Shown here one piece after another: positions 2,649 to 33,485 of a DNA stretch of 41,602 bases. Location of the stretch: NCBI GenBank assembly GCA_903893625.1, contig CAITND010000238.1, positions 1 to 41,602 of the forward strand, in the 5' to 3' direction. The notes below the pieces were generated by a model. It was not told the DNA's origin, ran no database searches, and saw only the letters and a program-made list of their open reading frames with translations. This stretch comes from an uncultured Oscillatoriales cyanobacterium. Lineage in GTDB: Bacteria > Cyanobacteriota > Cyanobacteriia > Cyanobacteriales > Microcoleaceae. The stretch's first letter is position 1; every line of letters starts with the position of its first letter. A program made the position numbers and the translations under genes.

Positions 2649-5465
2649 TTATCTTGACTGAAATGCAGCTTTCTCCAAGATTGGTCTAACGTCAGATGGA
2701 TTTCTTGAGACTTCACGTTGCCAATGACCAAAGCCACCATGCTGATTAACAGCTTGAATCCATTGATCTAAAAATCCCCATTTAGCCTGATCTTGGCGAG
2801 TTGGTTGCCCTTTTGTTTCCAAAATCAAGAAATTACCATTTTTCAGACGAACTATAAAGTCGGGGCGGTATTTGCGAACAATTCCATCAAAAATATACAG
2901 AATTTCAAATCCCAAGTGTTCGTTTTTCATCCAAGCATCAACATGATCATTCCGATCCAATTCAAAGGCTTCACTGGCTTCCCATGCACTATCAAAAATG
3001 CAACAATTAATATGAGATTTTTGGCTATATTCGCAAGGTTTACCCGTGTACCAAGGACGCATATCACCCGTAGATTGGATGGGATGTTCTGGATCAAATA
3101 CGGGTTCAAGTTTTTCTGTATTTTCTAAATAAATAGCCTGCCAAATGTGCTGAACAATTTTTCTCAGATTAAGGGTAATTAGGATACGCCGTCGAATTGC
3201 ATCCTGATTGAATAAGGTTGGAGTAATTTCGATAAAATCTGATTGGATCAATTCTTCGACTAATCGAATCAGCTTTGCCAGTAAGTATTCTCGATTACCC
3301 TGCCAACCCGGTTTCATCTGGTCAAAAATATCTCTAGCAACTTCAAAAGCAATTTTTTGGAATCGAAATTTTCGACCTAAATCTTCTAGGTCAATCGATT
3401 TAATTTTGGTCACATCCGGTTTACCATCGACACTGGGAGCGAGTTCTGCTAAGGTAATATTTTCAAAGGCATCTAACTTTAAAGGTTCAACCTGACTCAG
3501 ATCGAGTTTGAGTTCTGGCTGATAAATATAATCAATGCGAACAATATTGGGAAAGCTTATTTCAAACTGCTGCTTTTCAATATCGGGTTTAATTTCAGTC
3601 TTAGGATTAGGTGGTGGTGGCGGAGTTCCTTCATTAGATTCGTGGGGAAGAAAGGTAAAAGGAACACCAAAAATATTAACATATTCAGCTTCAAGTAAAT
3701 TAGTTTCTGGGTTAATATCATAAGCAGTTCTCCGTAAACCTCTACCTACAACTTGTTCACACAAAAGTTGGCTGGTAAATGCCCGAATCCCCATAATATG
3801 TGTCACAGTTTTGGCATCCCAACCTTCAGATAACATCCCAACAGAAATAACATTTTGAATCTGTTCCCCAGGTTTCCCAACTTGACCAACTGTATCAACT
3901 GTTTTTCGTAAAAGTTCTGCTTGTTCTTTCTTTGAAAGTTTGCGAATAGGTTCATCCTCAGAGTTATCATCTTCGCTATTTTCTGCGGCTGTATCTTGTA
4001 TTTCGGTGCTTTCTTCTTGGGATTCTGCCATTTTTAAAACATTAGAATCAATGTGTAAAGTGCGTTCTGAATTGCAGAGTTCTTCAATATGAATTTTGTG
4101 ATGATCGAAAGCATATTTAATTCTAGCCGCAGTTTCAGTACGGTTGGCAATAGAAATCATGGCTGGTGGAACTTTATGCCCCGATTCTTGCCATGCTTTC
4201 GCAGTTTCTAGCCAATCTTTTCCCAATAAAAGATAGCCATTAGCAAGCAAATCAGGCAGGGATTCATCAGGTTTAGCTTTACGATTAACATTATCATAAA
4301 CTTCGGGATCTCGATAAAGATGATAAAGACGGGATTTAAAGTCTTTTACATTCAGTCTGGCATCGTCACGAATCACCACGCGAGGGGTTTTAACTAAACC
4401 AGATTCAATGGCATCGTTTAAGCCAAAATCACTAATAATCCAGCCAAATAAAGCTTCTTCTGAACTCTTTTTACCAGAAGGTGCAAAGGGTGTGGCAGAA
4501 AAGTCAAAACAGGTAATAATTTTTCTAGCTTGGTGAATGCGATCGAGTCCACCAACCCATTTTGTAGCCTCGTCTAAATCGTCTTTACTGACACCTTTAA
4601 CTTTGGATTCAGCAGGTATGCGCCATGCGTGGTGTGCTTCGTCGTTAATAACAACAATGTTGCTAGAATTGGCAATTTCTCCTAATACTCCTCTGGCGTA
4701 GGCTTCGTTACTTTTTGCACCACGTTTATCAACTCCTTTTTTCTTCTTAATTTGTTCTTCTGTTTCCCAATTCAAGGCGTGCCAATTGCGGATTAAAACT
4801 TTCCCTTGACGAAGTTTATCGAATAATCCCAGAGGAACAATATTGAATATTTCATAATAGTTATTTTCCGCAGAGGGAATCAGAACTTCCAGACGATTTC
4901 TTACAGTTAGTCCGGGGGCAACAATAAAAATGGCTTTAGAAAAACGGGTATCTTGGGGATAGGTAATTTTATTGATAATTTGCCATGCAATTAACATCGC
5001 CATGACAATAGTTTTGCCCGAACCTGTTGCCATTTTGGAACAAAGGCGTTTGAAGTTTCCGCCATCGTCAGGAATATCAATGCCTACTTTTGCAGATGGT
5101 GGGGATTCTGTTAGCCAGATTAGGGTTTTTATGGCTTCTAACTGACAGAAAAAGAAGGGAAAATCGCGTTCTTCTGATTTGTCCCAGTGTTCTAGCAAAC
5201 GCTTGGTAACGCCTGTGACACCGGGGTATTCTTCATCGCACCAAGCTTTAACGCGGGGGCGGATTTGATTTACTAAAGGAATTTCGATAAATTTACCGGG
5301 ATCGTCGAAAGTTTTGGAGTTTTCCGAGGCGATAATATAGCCTGCGGGTCGTCTTCCTGCTGTACGATTAAATAGGCGAGAATTGCGATCGTAGTGCCAA
5401 TATTCTTGCGGTTCTTCGTAAGGAGAATTGATGATAAGTTGATTAATTGTAGTTTTTGATGACAT
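2649..5465 (-). CDS. Type III-like restriction subunit, DEAD/DEAH helicase with C-terminal nuclease
   Basis: A 938-residue ATP-dependent restriction subunit that would translocate on DNA and cut unmodified sites with the partner methyltransferase encoded upstream. Superfamily 2 motifs run in order: ATGSGKT (Walker A, about residue 146), INDEAHHAW (DEAH-like Walker B, near 275), FDFSATPF (motif III, near 323), then SEGWDAKTVTHI and QVVGRGLRR (motifs V and VI). Near the C-terminus YRPDFIVRLKNGNFLILETKG has the D...ExK pattern of a PD-(D/E)XK nuclease. It is probably the last gene of an operon with mod (9799) and a Uma2 gene (6125), and lies 54 bases after the latter. No frameshift is visible, so it is probably functional. 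Confidence 0.9.
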   Translation of the reverse strand: MSSKTTINQLIINSPYEEPQEYWHYDRNSRLFNRTAGRRPAGYIIASENSKTFDDPGKFIEIPLVNQIRPRVKAWCDEEYPGVTGVTKRLLEHWDKSEERDFPFFFCQLEAIKTLIWLTESPPSAKVGIDIPDDGGNFKRLCSKMATGSGKTIVMAMLIAWQIINKITYPQDTRFSKAIFIVAPGLTVRNRLEVLIPSAENNYYEIFNIVPLGLFDKLRQGKVLIRNWHALNWETEEQIKKKKGVDKRGAKSNEAYARGVLGEIANSSNIVVINDEAHHAWRIPAESKVKGVSKDDLDEATKWVGGLDRIHQARKIITCFDFSATPFAPSGKKSSEEALFGWIISDFGLNDAIESGLVKTPRVVIRDDARLNVKDFKSRLYHLYRDPEVYDNVNRKAKPDESLPDLLANGYLLLGKDWLETAKAWQESGHKVPPAMISIANRTETAARIKYAFDHHKIHIEELCNSERTLHIDSNVLKMAESQEESTEIQDTAAENSEDDNSEDEPIRKLSKKEQAELLRKTVDTVGQVGKPGEQIQNVISVGMLSEGWDAKTVTHIMGIRAFTSQLLCEQVVGRGLRRTAYDINPETNLLEAEYVNIFGVPFTFLPHESNEGTPPPPPNPKTEIKPDIEKQQFEISFPNIVRIDYIYQPELKLDLSQVEPLKLDAFENITLAELAPSVDGKPDVTKIKSIDLEDLGRKFRFQKIAFEVARDIFDQMKPGWQGNREYLLAKLIRLVEELIQSDFIEITPTLFNQDAIRRRILITLNLRKIVQHIWQAIYLENTEKLEPVFDPEHPIQSTGDMRPWYTGKPCEYSQKSHINCCIFDSAWEASEAFELDRNDHVDAWMKNEHLGFEILYIFDGIVRKYRPDFIVRLKNGNFLILETKGQPTRQDQAKWGFLDQWIQAVNQHGGFGHWQREVSRNPSDVRPILEKAAFQSR

Positions 5466-5519: not shown

Positions 5520-6125
5520 TTACTCACCATTAAAAATCTGCACGGCGGTCAAATTCAACTCTGGAAAAACTACTGATTCAACTCTTTCATCTCCTCGAAA
5601 CAGCTTAATTTGATACTCACTATCTACTAACTGATAAACCGATAAAGTTGGCTGTTTTGGAGAACCAATATAACGGCTACCACCTAAACCCAAATAATCG
5701 ACAATCCAATATTCGGGAATGCCTAATGCTTCATAATCGATCATTTTGTGGGCATAATCATCGCGCCAATTTGTGCTGACGACTTCAATGATTAGGGGAA
5801 TGGACAAGCCTTGCGTAATTGTTGAGGATTTTTTCCACAAAGGTTCTAGGGCTAAAGCATCACCTTTGACTACCAAAATATCAGGTAAATAGCCCGTTTC
5901 TTCACTCGGAGATTTAACCAAAGCATTCTTAGGAAATCGATAAGGAAGTTGCAGCCTGCCAGTTTCTAGGATTAGAGATGTCTGTAAAAATTCAACAACC
6001 TCTTCGTGTTTTCCTGTAGTTTGCATTTCTACAATAGCTCCTCGATGTAGTTCATAGCGTCCGTTTTCTGGTTTCCATTCCAGAAATTCATCAAAAGTCA
6101 TTAACTTAGATATAGTTTGAATCAT
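5520..6125 (-). CDS. Uma2 family (DUF820) putative endonuclease
   Basis: A 201-residue member of the Uma2/DUF820 family, which is greatly expanded in cyanobacteria and has a PD-(D/E)XK-type fold. Visible family features are an N-terminal MTFDEFLEW...GRYELHRGAIVEM segment, LPDILVVKGD with the catalytic-type Asp, and IIEVVST...YEALGIPEYWIVDYLG carrying the second acidic position. The biological role of the family is unsettled. It sits between mod and res of a restriction operon, with about 55 bases on each side and the same strand, so it is probably cotranscribed. Whether it contributes to restriction or merely inserted there is unknown. Confidence 0.88.
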   Translation of the reverse strand: MIQTISKLMTFDEFLEWKPENGRYELHRGAIVEMQTTGKHEEVVEFLQTSLILETGRLQLPYRFPKNALVKSPSEETGYLPDILVVKGDALALEPLWKKSSTITQGLSIPLIIEVVSTNWRDDYAHKMIDYEALGIPEYWIVDYLGLGGSRYIGSPKQPTLSVYQLVDSEYQIKLFRGDERVESVVFPELNLTAVQIFNGE

Positions 6126-6181: not shown

Positions 6182-9100
6182 TCATGGCGTTAACCGAATA
6201 ATCTTCAAACTTTCAATCCCCCGATCGTCCACAATTTTAACAGCAACCCGCTGATATTCTCCCATTTCAAAAGGTAACGAAACAGTTCCCTGATAAGACT
6301 CGATTAAATCCTCATCAATTTCAGCTTTCAAATTCTTAGCTAAACGCGACCAAGCATCTTTTTCCCCTGCCATTGGAAAGAAAACCTGACGGGGGAAAAT
6401 ACTTCTACCATCATAATCGGTATCTAACATCCAAACAGCTATTTTTTCAACACTGCCCGACTCGATATTTCCCGTCTTAGTGTTATAATAATCGAAGCCA
6501 AAAACTTCTACTTCCCACTTACCTTTATTTTCCCCTTTCTCGATCCGCCGCAGGGTGACATCTGGCTGCCCCATCAACCAAAAACTCTCATTACTAGCAC
6601 GTTTTTTCTTCAGGTCTTCTGTTAGCAAATCGGCGTTCATTTGCGCTTTTAATAATGTTACTCCTGGCCAGTTAGTTTCTTCGATATCTTTGGCAGCTTC
6701 GGGGTCAAATTGAAAGGCGGCAAAGATAATTAATTTCGGTTTTGGGACTAAAGTTTGTGCTTCTTCAATGGCTTGGGCAACTTGTCTTTGTTCTAAAGGT
6801 GCGTATTCTGGGCCGAAGGAAATTACCACTCGCATTGGTTGACCATAACTACCACCAGTTTCTTTTACTGTATTAGCACCAAGGTCATTTGGTTTGGTTT
6901 CGGCATCGGCGTGAAGCCAACGAGTGCCGGGTAAAGCTTCAACTCTGGAGAATAAAATATATTGCCCGTTTTTACCGCGAATCCCCGTTTTTAGCAGTTC
7001 ATCTCGCCATTCTGATTGGCGCAATGTTTCGCCAGAACGAGCAATTGAATTATCAAGAATGGGTGAATTAATAATATCATCAATGGGTTTAACTGTGGGT
7101 GCGGGGACGGCTTCAACGGTGAAGGGGCCAGTAACTCTGGCTTTGGATTTGTCTAATAATGGTTGGTCATAAAGTGTTTCTTGGTCAGCGTATTTATTAA
7201 TGGCTTGTTCGATTTCTATGCGTTTCATGCCTGACCGAATTTCGGGGTTATTGGCAATAGATTTGAGGGTGATATGAGGGACGGTTTTGTATTTGAAACC
7301 ATCGCTTACGCCTGCTTGGGAATTTGCGAGTTGATAATAGTCAAAGGTGGCGGTCATTAACCTTTGTTTGGCTAGGGTTATTGCTACTCTTGAGGTATCG
7401 CAGGTTATCCATCTGCGTCCCCATTGTTCGGCTACATAGGCAGTTGTACCACTCCCACAGTTGTGAACTGTACAAACTTCAGTAATAAAAGAATGACTAC
7501 CTTCAATCTCTAAATCATAGACAGTTTCATTTGACCAACAATTTTCTACTTTTGCAATTTCAACACATTGAAGACTAATCTTTTCTCCCCCTATTTCTCC
7601 CCCCATTTCTCCCCCCATTTCTCCCCCCATTTCTCCCCCTATTTCTCCCTCTCTTTCTCCCCCCGTACACGGGGGGTTGGGGGGGGACACAAGTGCACTA
7701 AAAACAATATCTCCTGGTTTTAAATTACCTGCTTGAACCCAACTTGCACCCTCAATTGATTCAGTGCGGATGCGACATTGAGATTCAATTGCTAAACAAA
7801 CTCCTTCTAAATTTTCGTAAATTTCTTTTGTCGTAAAGCGCAGCACATCAAGACCAAGACTACGCATAAAACTATCTCGTTGTCGATCATATTCTATTGC
7901 TTCTGGTTCAAAGTGGGTTGCGCCATCTATTTCTACAACTAAATGAGCATCTCGGCTATAAAAATCAGCAATATATCGACCGATAGGATGTTGACGACGA
8001 AACTTAAATTCTAGTTTTTTCCCTCGTAAAACATCCCACAATTTCTGCTCAGGAGGTGTCATTTCTTTACGAAGTTTTCGGCGAAGTTCTAGGTGAGTGT
8101 AGGGGGTTGCTGACCAGTCTTGATTACCTCCTAAACTGCGCGGTCTAAGTTTTGCTAGTACGCGATGATCGGCTGTTAACCACATAGTTGTATTGTTGTT
8201 TTTACAGGTTAACCCAATCATTTCTCCTTGGTATTGTTTTTGGATAATGCGTAGGACTCGGTGCGGTTTTTGGTCGTGACTGTAGACTAAAGTACCGGGT
8301 TGTATTTCTTCGATGGGAATGAGTTTTCCCCCCCTAAATTCCCCCGTAAATCCCCCCCTAAATCCCCCCGTGTACGGGGGGACTTTGAGTTCTCTTGCTC
8401 CCTCCCCATTCATGGGGAGGGTTGGGGTGGGGGTCAATATTTTTGTTCCTTTTCGCAAACAGGTAATATCTAGGACTAAATCGCCTGGGTCGGTGGTCAT
8501 TAGGAGACAGCGTTCAATAACTTTAGTGTTTGTCTGAACAACGTAAATCTTGGATGCTGAAAATGTACTTAGTCTTGTGTCACTCCAAGTATTTGAAATA
8601 GGTGTTACTGGAAAATCATTTCGATATCGCTTGTAGCAAAGAGTCTTACCAACTACCATCAAACGTTGAGCATTCTTTAAAACATCTAAACCTTCTAAAC
8701 TTGTTTTCCAATGATTTTTACCAGGATGAAATACTTTATTTTCAAATTCAAAATCAACGGTTGTATTAGGACTGAATCCATCTGATGTTAGATTATCAGA
8801 ACGGAAAACCATAGCATTTTCGGGTATATTTATTGGATTTCTTAATTCTTCTGAAGTAGGTTTTCTGAGATTTCCATTAACTTCTTGTATCCAATCATTT
8901 GAAGACAAATATTCTTTGCTACCAGTCCAAAATATCTTATTATATTTAACTTTTATTTTGTCTTTTGCGTACCAAATCAAATAATCAGCAATTGAAGGTA
9001 GTAATGCCGAACTTTGACCAGTTGTTGTCTGAAAATTTACAAGAGAACAAAAGTTATCTATTCCAAAAACCTCATCCATCAATTCCCTAACATGATGCAC

Positions 9101-9799
9101 ATTCTCATCCGAAATCTGCACAAAAACACTACCAGTTTCCAACAATAACTCCCTCGCCAATAACAATCTATCTCTTAAATAAGTCAAATAAGAATGTATC
9201 CCCAATTCCCAAGTATCCCGAAATGCTTTAATCATTTCCGGTTCTTGAGTCAAATCCTCATCTTTCCCATCTTTCACATCCCGCTTATTCACAAACGGCT
9301 GAAAATTTGAACCATATTTAATCCCATAGGGCGGATCGAAATAAATCATCTGCACTTGTCCCGCCATTCCCTCTTTTTCTAATAGGGAGTTCATCACTAA
9401 AAGCGAATCTCCAGCAACTAAACGGTTACTCCAATTATGCTTATGTTTGTAAAATTCGATCGCTTGACGAATCGGCGGATTTTCTTCTGGTATTTCAAAC
9501 AGAGATAACTGCACACCCTCACTTTGATTTTGCTTACGAACTGCTTCTATAATGCTACGAGGATCGATACGTTCGTGAACGTGCAAAGATACAGTTGGCA
9601 CTTCAAAATTAGTATGTTCAGCCTTACCCGCCCAAACTAACTGCGGATCAAGGTGCGGATCATAGCTATAATTTTTCTGATCCCCATCAGGATCAGTTTC
9701 TGGCGTCACCAGTCCCACAGGTGGATTATTCACTCGTTGCTGATTTTCGTGATTATATTGATCTATCTGTCTTTGATCCGGTTTCTTTTGCCTTGCCAT
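6182..9799 (-). CDS. Site-specific DNA methyltransferase (type III Mod-like) interrupted by an intein
   Basis: A 1205-residue precursor that methylates DNA with AdoMet and partners the restriction subunit encoded downstream. The catalytic motif MIYFDPPYG (DPPY at 155-158) precedes the AdoMet-binding motif I, the order of beta-class N6-adenine/N4-cytosine methyltransferases. Motif I is split: ...VLDIT (to residue 446) continues only at CGSGTTAYVAEQWGRRW (from residue 781). The intervening 334 residues (447-780, bases 7460-8461) are an in-frame intein, listed separately. Splicing would give an 871-residue enzyme with a long C-terminal region rich in beta and helical segments, probably for target recognition and Res contact. 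The unspliced precursor should not bind AdoMet properly. The start is an ATG 25 bases after a possible small gene. Target sequence unknown. Confidence 0.93.
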   Translation of the reverse strand: MARQKKPDQRQIDQYNHENQQRVNNPPVGLVTPETDPDGDQKNYSYDPHLDPQLVWAGKAEHTNFEVPTVSLHVHERIDPRSIIEAVRKQNQSEGVQLSLFEIPEENPPIRQAIEFYKHKHNWSNRLVAGDSLLVMNSLLEKEGMAGQVQMIYFDPPYGIKYGSNFQPFVNKRDVKDGKDEDLTQEPEMIKAFRDTWELGIHSYLTYLRDRLLLARELLLETGSVFVQISDENVHHVRELMDEVFGIDNFCSLVNFQTTTGQSSALLPSIADYLIWYAKDKIKVKYNKIFWTGSKEYLSSNDWIQEVNGNLRKPTSEELRNPINIPENAMVFRSDNLTSDGFSPNTTVDFEFENKVFHPGKNHWKTSLEGLDVLKNAQRLMVVGKTLCYKRYRNDFPVTPISNTWSDTRLSTFSASKIYVVQTNTKVIERCLLMTTDPGDLVLDITCLRKGTKILTPTPTLPMNGEGARELKVPPYTGGFRGGFTGEFRGGKLIPIEEIQPGTLVYSHDQKPHRVLRIIQKQYQGEMIGLTCKNNNTTMWLTADHRVLAKLRPRSLGGNQDWSATPYTHLELRRKLRKEMTPPEQKLWDVLRGKKLEFKFRRQHPIGRYIADFYSRDAHLVVEIDGATHFEPEAIEYDRQRDSFMRSLGLDVLRFTTKEIYENLEGVCLAIESQCRIRTESIEGASWVQAGNLKPGDIVFSALVSPPNPPCTGGEREGEIGGEMGGEMGGEMGGEIGGEKISLQCVEIAKVENCWSNETVYDLEIEGSHSFITEVCTVHNCGSGTTAYVAEQWGRRWITCDTSRVAITLAKQRLMTATFDYYQLANSQAGVSDGFKYKTVPHITLKSIANNPEIRSGMKRIEIEQAINKYADQETLYDQPLLDKSKARVTGPFTVEAVPAPTVKPIDDIINSPILDNSIARSGETLRQSEWRDELLKTGIRGKNGQYILFSRVEALPGTRWLHADAETKPNDLGANTVKETGGSYGQPMRVVISFGPEYAPLEQRQVAQAIEEAQTLVPKPKLIIFAAFQFDPEAAKDIEETNWPGVTLLKAQMNADLLTEDLKKKRASNESFWLMGQPDVTLRRIEKGENKGKWEVEVFGFDYYNTKTGNIESGSVEKIAVWMLDTDYDGRSIFPRQVFFPMAGEKDAWSRLAKNLKAEIDEDLIESYQGTVSLPFEMGEYQRVAVKIVDDRGIESLKIIRLTP
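7582..7690. repeat. 12-bp tandem array plus palindrome inside the intein
   Basis: About six copies of TTTCTCCCCCCA-like 12-mers, encoding GGEM/GGEI on the minus strand, run into the hairpin CCCCCCGTACACGGGGGG (7659-7676) and a G-run. All units are multiples of three, so the reading frame stays open through the array. The palindrome is the same core as at 2573, 8365, 33449 and 33864. Confidence 0.85.
8326..8436. repeat. Two palindromic repeats inside the intein N-terminal region
   Basis: Reading along the plus strand, CCCCCCTAAAT-type units lead into CCCCCCGTGTACGGGGGG (about 8365-8382). A second, different palindrome, CCTCCCCATTCATGGGGAGG (8401-8420), continues into GGTTGGGGTGGGGGTC. They encode residues lying between splicing blocks A and B (TPTPTLPMNGEG and VPPYTGGFRGG). 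Both are dispersed cyanobacterial repeat types. Confidence 0.8.
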
Positions 9800-25545: not shown

Positions 25546-25654
25546 GTTGTAACATTTTATCGTAGGGGTTGGGTCTCCCAACCCAGGCGTCAAGAGGGTT
25601 GGGAGGGACGCCACCCCTACGGATTTTTATCACAAATCATTTAGGATTGCTATA
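25528..25654. mobile_element. MITE with TATAGCAATCCTAAAT terminal inverted repeats
   Basis: A 127-base element. The left end TATAGCAATCCTAAAT (25528-25543) is the exact inverse of the right end ATTTAGGATTGCTATA (25639-25654). Inside, GTAGGGGTTGGG...GGGTTGGGAGGG...CCCCTAC can pair further. No transposase is encoded. A partial relative (GGATTGCTATA) is seen near 40334. Confidence 0.85.
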
Positions 25655-33404: not shown

Positions 33405-33485
33405 TGTTGACGGTTAACGGTCAACGGTTAACCGTCCCCCCCAACCCCCCGTACACGGAGGGCAAGGGGGCTTCAACCGTCAACA
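33405..33485. mobile_element. MITE-like palindrome between EamA and LysR genes
   Basis: An 81-base element with TGTTGACGGTT (33405-33415) and AACCGTCAACA (33475-33485) as exact 11-bp inverted ends. Its core is CCCCCCGTACACGGAGGG, the same core found at 2573 and inside the mod intein. It would fold on either strand and so may end both convergent transcripts. Confidence 0.75.

Follow-up and report, generated by a model that had tools for sequence, protein, structure and literature searches.

Introduction

The described elements closest to the one reported here are class-1 inteins into which a homing endonuclease is inserted, with PI-SceI and the Mtu RecA splicing domain (PDB 3ifj) as examples. 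The present element interrupts a DNA methyltransferase gene resembling the Mod subunit of type III restriction systems in a 41,602-nucleotide contig (the window; CAITND010000238.1) from an uncultured Oscillatoriales cyanobacterium. The usual endonuclease of such inteins is of the LAGLIDADG type, whereas the element in the window has a DUF559 nuclease, together with C/G palindromes in the loop that follows splicing block A. The nuclease is comparable to the EDxHD or Vsr-like homing endonucleases (I-Bth0305I, PDB 3r3p) in its fold and conserved acidic residues, the features on which the comparison was made. A homing-type intein is a known kind of element, on which the DUF559 endonuclease is a variation.

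The host protein belongs to the same family as the type III Mod proteins (EcoP15I Mod, 4zcf; Mod, 6k0w) and, like them, has a ResIII-type partner close by; it differs in that the Mod is of about 870 residues, the partner is of the BPTD_3080 family, and a Uma2 gene lies between the two. An intein in a DNA methylase that has been transferred over long distances between divergent hosts has also been described from actinophages (PMC9957025); that intein is phage-borne and accompanied by a second, LAGLIDADG-type endonuclease outside the intein. A DUF559 EDxHD gene of two Thermosynechococcus strains is mentioned in the intein section of a further article (PMC9403480), and may or may not be the intein reported here.

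Our favoured reading, to which we assign a probability of roughly 80%, is that the insert in the window is a class-1 intein with a DUF559 endonuclease, which has spread as a homing-type element in a single codon of the methyltransferase motif I.

The splicing domain and its empty sites

The host open reading frame (ORF; 6182..9799, minus strand) encodes a precursor of 1205 residues, of which residues 447-780 (7460..8461, minus strand) form a 334-residue insert delimited by Pfam, NCBIfam, homologue alignment and fold. The block A nucleophile, Cys447 (8459..8461, minus strand), is invariant in all eleven of the inteins aligned, as are the Thr, Asp and His of the block B sequence T542-A-D-H545 (8165..8176, minus strand). 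Blocks F and G (7460..7528, minus strand), recognised by NCBIfam and by alignment, end in VCTVHN with His779-Asn780, and the +1 residue, Cys781 (7457..7459, minus strand), is the first of the CGSGTT sequence of motif I. The Pfam Intein_splicing match is sub-threshold (1.4e-05; 25.4 bits against a cut-off of 35.8), the NCBIfam model TIGR01443 (intein_Cterm) scores above its cut-off (22 against 15.6), and a fold search found the Hint fold in the predicted model of the intein. With its Hint splicing fold, Cys1, TxxH, HN and +1 Cys, the insert is, as judged from its sequence, a class-1 intein. These findings bear out the initial annotation, which had given the intein exact coordinates and had named the splice residues, all of which are present in the ORF.

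The insertion point lies between DIT and CGSGTT, within the S-adenosylmethionine (AdoMet) binding motif I. A tblastn search of the precursor against 89 loci (L001-L089) showed that intein-free homologues align with residues 1-447 and 781-1205 and share a single Cys codon at the junction, in agreement with the earlier placement of the insert in the AdoMet loop. The sequence D[PIS]TCGSGT occupies this site in all 47 of the intein-free rows of our extein tree, which were chosen for an ORF of at least 500 residues with both D/N-PPY and a string resembling motif I in which C, F, A or S was permitted, and the flanks of occupied and empty sites also match at the nucleotide level (11 occupied loci; 11 of the 12 empty loci sought). 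The intein is absent from close relatives such as Argonema. Excision of 334 residues would leave the 871-residue enzyme that had been anticipated. The precursor is predicted to splice itself and so restore this normal enzyme; the unspliced methyltransferase is likely to be inactive.

The DUF559 nuclease

The nuclease of the intein (residues 573-675; 7775..8083, minus strand) is a PD-(D/E)XK or Vsr-like domain that matches DUF559 (PF04480) in Pfam at 102.9 bits against a cut-off of 20.6 (1.1e-29). Profile and fold searches place it near 3hrl and the homing endonuclease I-Bth0305I, and it matches the I-Bth0305I/Vsr fold. Pfam gave no LAGLIDADG match at E 0.001 in either the precursor or the intein, so that the original assignment to a DUF559/Vsr-like rather than a LAGLIDADG nuclease stands. 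Asp612, Glu623 and Asp625, proposed at that stage as nuclease residues and presumably catalytic, are invariant in all eleven intein relatives, as is His629. A DUF559 protein of Caulobacter, VsrA, has been linked to DNA damage and proposed to act in mismatch repair (PMC12907096).

The DUF559 domains borne by inteins form one clade with support of 99/92 (10 distinct domains among 75 rows, over 101 columns; identical domains were collapsed, that of the window being the same as that of genome G502), and this clade is nested among free-standing DUF559 proteins. The ratio of nonsynonymous to synonymous substitution (dN/dS) for the domain is 0.00-0.04 in the three pairs of Planktothrix copies, which shows that within this genus the nuclease is under purifying selection; G592 gives 0.14 with G561 and 0.19 with G310. 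The ratio is 1.42 for the N-terminal splice part between G255 and G502, on six changes, and 0.6 to 5 for the repeat tracts described below.

Distribution and probable mobility

Our searches recovered the intein from 14 genomes, ten of them cyanobacterial and four from the phylum of an Anaerolineales metagenome-assembled genome (Chloroflexota). Twelve inteins are complete (G000, G255, G502, G247, G011, G310, G592, G561, G709, G699, G682 and G1122) and two are damaged (G520 and G548). The eleven copies compared first occupy an identical motif-I Cys site, and G1122, which was found later and is excluded from the eleven-copy analyses, reads likewise. The junction usually reads D-x-T followed by CGSGTT; in G011 it is DFF followed by CGSGTT. 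We class these copies as a single intein family at one codon, that of the motif-I Cys, of type III Mod-like methyltransferases in cyanobacteria and Chloroflexota.

Within the genus of the window, three of the ten genomes have a complete intein (the window, G255 and G502) and one has an interrupted copy (G548), while the remaining six, one of which is 73% complete, gave no match at E 1e-25. Both pieces of the G548 intein are at contig ends and are broken within palindrome tracts. By eye, a 15-base sequence in one piece (L226) recurs inverted in the other (L227), and the two may be the ends of an insertion element.

The full intein was not found in viral contigs (four loci, in each of which the match was confined to the DUF559 region), in plasmids (43 records, none with a place covering 80%), in phages (three records), or in eleven genomes with intein-free homologues, four of which had DUF559-only matches. 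A search of 148 genomes of a further phylum (that of G671) at E 1e-36 also found no full intein, an empty answer that is uninformative there.

Homing would account for this pattern as follows. The nuclease would cut intein-free alleles at the conserved motif-I site, the cut allele would then be repaired from an occupied copy, spreading the intein, and the precursor would splice itself so that the host enzyme returns to normal. We infer that the intein has spread by such cutting of empty alleles. Several observations weigh against this reading. Carriers are infrequent. A profile built from four inteins identified 5 among 386 genomes of the phylum and 7 among 388 of the order, including the partial copy of G520, and there were 4 among 400 in the phylum of G677, the Anaerolineales genome with locus L024. 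The phylum and order sets overlap, a match in G058 was left out of both as a free-standing DUF559 gene, and three of the four Chloroflexota carriers were already present in a search of 201 genomes. The extein tree, made by a quick method, shows a sporadic presence, with the intein in 8 of 55 rows and 6 gains or losses needed, 4 of which the starred branches make unavoidable; a number as low was nevertheless reached in only 12 of 500 shuffles, so that presence is also partly clustered, as descent would predict too. Long branches leave parts of this tree unsure, and it omits the broken exteins of G247, G561 and G682 and the intein-free G179 and G033. G502 has, beside its occupied copy, an intein-free second copy (L225, G502:C4) on a 52-kb contig, with 82 of 90 bases around the site identical between the two; homing is therefore incomplete in this genome. 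The DUF559 dN/dS between G310 and G561 is 0.77, on eight changes, and the prediction confidence (predicted local distance difference test, pLDDT) is below 50 for the final 12 residues of the modelled intein, block G included.

The rarity of carriers and the coexistence of the two alleles in G502 would also be expected of an intein that still splices and has lost homing, with the nuclease kept for some other reason, for example fold stability or palindrome cutting, and the patchiness left by old transfer and loss. We consider this account unlikely, on the grounds that the presumed catalytic residues are invariant in all eleven copies and that the intein of G011 is 55% identical to that of the window while their methyltransferases are only 26% identical.

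A contiguous family of inteins with a DUF559 nuclease, fixed at the same catalytic codon in the restriction-system methyltransferases of two bacterial phyla, offers a good test bed for non-LAGLIDADG homing.

Palindromes in the intein and beside other DUF559 genes

The loop after block A (residues 455-495; 8315..8437, minus strand), most of which has a pLDDT below 50, is filled with in-frame palindromic repeats, and a second in-frame repeat tract (residues 704-740; 7580..7690, minus strand) is present, among the eleven aligned copies, in the three Planktothrix ones only. Together the two tracts hold three strict C/G palindromes, defined by perfect arms of at least 8 bases, a loop of at most 6 and 75% GC, which had gone unnoticed in the initial annotation: CCCTCCCC-N6-GGGGAGGG at 8400..8421, CCCCCCGTACACGGGGGG at 8364..8381 as read on the minus strand, and CCCCCCGTACACGGGGGG again on the plus strand at 7659..7676, in the opposite orientation. 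The rest of the window has one further strict palindrome, near 25573 and with its G arm first, and an imperfect copy of one of the intein palindromes at 33445-33462. Across the genome, which has two DUF559 genes, the CCCCCCGTACACGGGGGG family occupies 31 distinct places at no more than one mismatch.

A palindrome is present in the post-block-A loop of all eleven inteins, with 21 in 2031 nucleotides against 0.28 in shuffled sequence; beyond that loop there are 2 in 8508 nucleotides, confined to two of the eleven inteins (the window and G502). In the four inteins that share an LP..GEG motif in this loop, wobble-position identity is 0.80 at the codons of the motif, which was picked after being seen, and 0.38 elsewhere, and 0.064% of random draws reach 0.80. 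The high identity implies that either the DNA itself is under constraint or one and the same repeat has arrived more than once. By eye, the G1122 intein (L229) has long arrays of palindrome-type repeats in its loop, and another repeat peptide in its C-extein.

Palindromes of this kind are also associated with DUF559 genes elsewhere. In a set made up of the best-scoring locus from each of 30 of the 84 genomes with a match, a palindrome lies within 300 bp of 23 of the 30 DUF559 loci, and on both sides in 10, although these loci are not independent, 19 being from one family (f31) and several having a PriA insertion in common. The count was 41 palindromes against 0.3 in shuffles, and the density 2.28 per kb near the genes compared with 0.14 per kb far from them. 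As controls, a palindrome was present at 1 of 48 methyltransferase loci, mostly from other genomes, and, within the DUF559 loci, at 4 of the 31 ends of other ORFs. The C arm comes first in all 43 palindromes near DUF559. In an earlier, hand-picked set a palindrome was within 450 bp at 31 of 44 loci. Flanking pairs are inverted at 16 and direct at 8 of the 24 loci with palindromes on two sides (26 of 69 loci, less L215 and L216, which are pieces of the G502 intein). The palindromes of the intein loop are dispersed repeats, of a type that also flanks DUF559 genes. Neither this link nor the intein itself was seen in the titles and abstract openings listed by our searches of open-licence papers, most of which were not opened.

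It is conceivable, and to our minds doubtful, that DUF559 with its palindromes is the primary mobile unit, which joined a Hint element on a single occasion and has travelled with it since, its palindromes serving as ends or recognition sites. The nesting of the intein-borne clade among free-standing DUF559 proteins fits such a unit, as do the enrichment in the same loop of all eleven inteins and the proximity to most DUF559 loci over both controls. Against it, the 31 genomic places exceed what two DUF559 genes could explain, nine of the eleven inteins have no strict palindrome past the first loop, 7 of the 30 DUF559 loci lack a palindrome altogether, and the flanking pairs follow no single arrangement.

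A comparison can be made with the repetitive extragenic palindromic (REP) elements and their REP-associated tyrosine transposases (RAYT), and with the Rickettsia palindromic elements, in which palindromic repeats likewise accompany a nuclease gene or lie in frame within coding genes. The partner gene here is DUF559 and not a tyrosine transposase, and the likeness is one of arrangement. We tentatively suggest, at less than even odds, that DUF559 and the C-arm-first palindromes constitute a RAYT/REP-like mobile system that inserts in frame, one lineage of which became the endonuclease of an intein aimed at the cofactor motif of DNA methyltransferases in two phyla, with the loop palindromes as working parts. 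The DUF559-palindrome link, which is correlational, is the more novel part of this work, and offers a new lead on the role of the common DUF559 proteins.

Ten loci have an in-frame DUF559 domain with no intein match (L094, L096, L100, L102, L103, L105, L110, L111, L114 and L116). Their hosts are unrelated proteins that include PriA, PrmA, a GHMP kinase, an M14 peptidase and enzymes like Eco57I, MmeI and type ISP; a radical SAM protein has the domain at its end. A C/G palindrome lies no more than 450 bp away in eight of the ten. Long DUF559 ORFs were considered as further inteins, and Pfam at E 0.001 gave no intein match in the ten scanned. In the PriA of L105 (G206) a DUF559 insert occupies residues of about 240-385 and lies, by eye, just before Walker A; in all six relatives searched, PriA is without the insert.

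The host methyltransferase and its neighbours

The interrupted gene encodes a type III Mod-like N6/N4 DNA methyltransferase, as indicated by an N6_N4_Mtase match in Pfam and by PDB matches. Alignment with intein-free homologues divides it into an N-extein (residues 1-446; 8462..9799, minus strand), with the DPPY motif, the target-recognition part and the terminal DIT, and a C-extein that runs from CGSGTT onward (6182..7459, minus strand). DPPY precedes motif I, which we take to be the motif order of the beta class. With the intein-free Argonema homologue as query, the nearest solved structures are type III Mod proteins (6k0w; EcoP15I, 4zcf), and type III membership is indicated by the presence both of a Mod akin to that of EcoP15I and of a ResIII partner.

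This partner is a BPTD_3080-family restriction (Res-like, ResIII) subunit (2649..5465, minus strand; Pfam and NCBIfam). The initial annotation had described it as intact and adjacent to the methyltransferase gene: the NF046055 profile spans 2-969 of 970 positions, so that the subunit is full length, but it is not adjacent, as a Uma2-family gene (5520..6125, minus strand) intervenes. A sequence search of the Res subunit against the PDB at E 0.01 returned no matches.

It had also been raised as a possibility that splicing, by its timing, works as a switch between modification and restriction and so determines their balance. The position of the intein in motif I, where it probably inactivates the unspliced Mod, and the intact Res gene are what such a switch would require, yet we think it very improbable. 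A type III Res restricts only together with Mod, and slow splicing would therefore lower both activities without tilting the balance; moreover, the intein is sporadic among the extein-tree rows and is found in broken host genes, the ORF being broken or shortened, possibly by assembly error, in G502, G247, G561, G682 and G520. The relatives of the intein at the same site in two phyla favour a mobile element over an enzyme switch. That the insert is an ordinary extra domain of the methyltransferase, as its reading frame and its conservation among three Planktothrix genomes might suggest, is practically negligible as an explanation: the full set of splice motifs speaks against it, and it is refuted by the empty sites of the 47 homologues that lack the insert, the comparison that had been put forward as a check on this point.

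Relatives of the Uma2 gene are also present in the loci fetched from Argonema, G129, G255 and G502.
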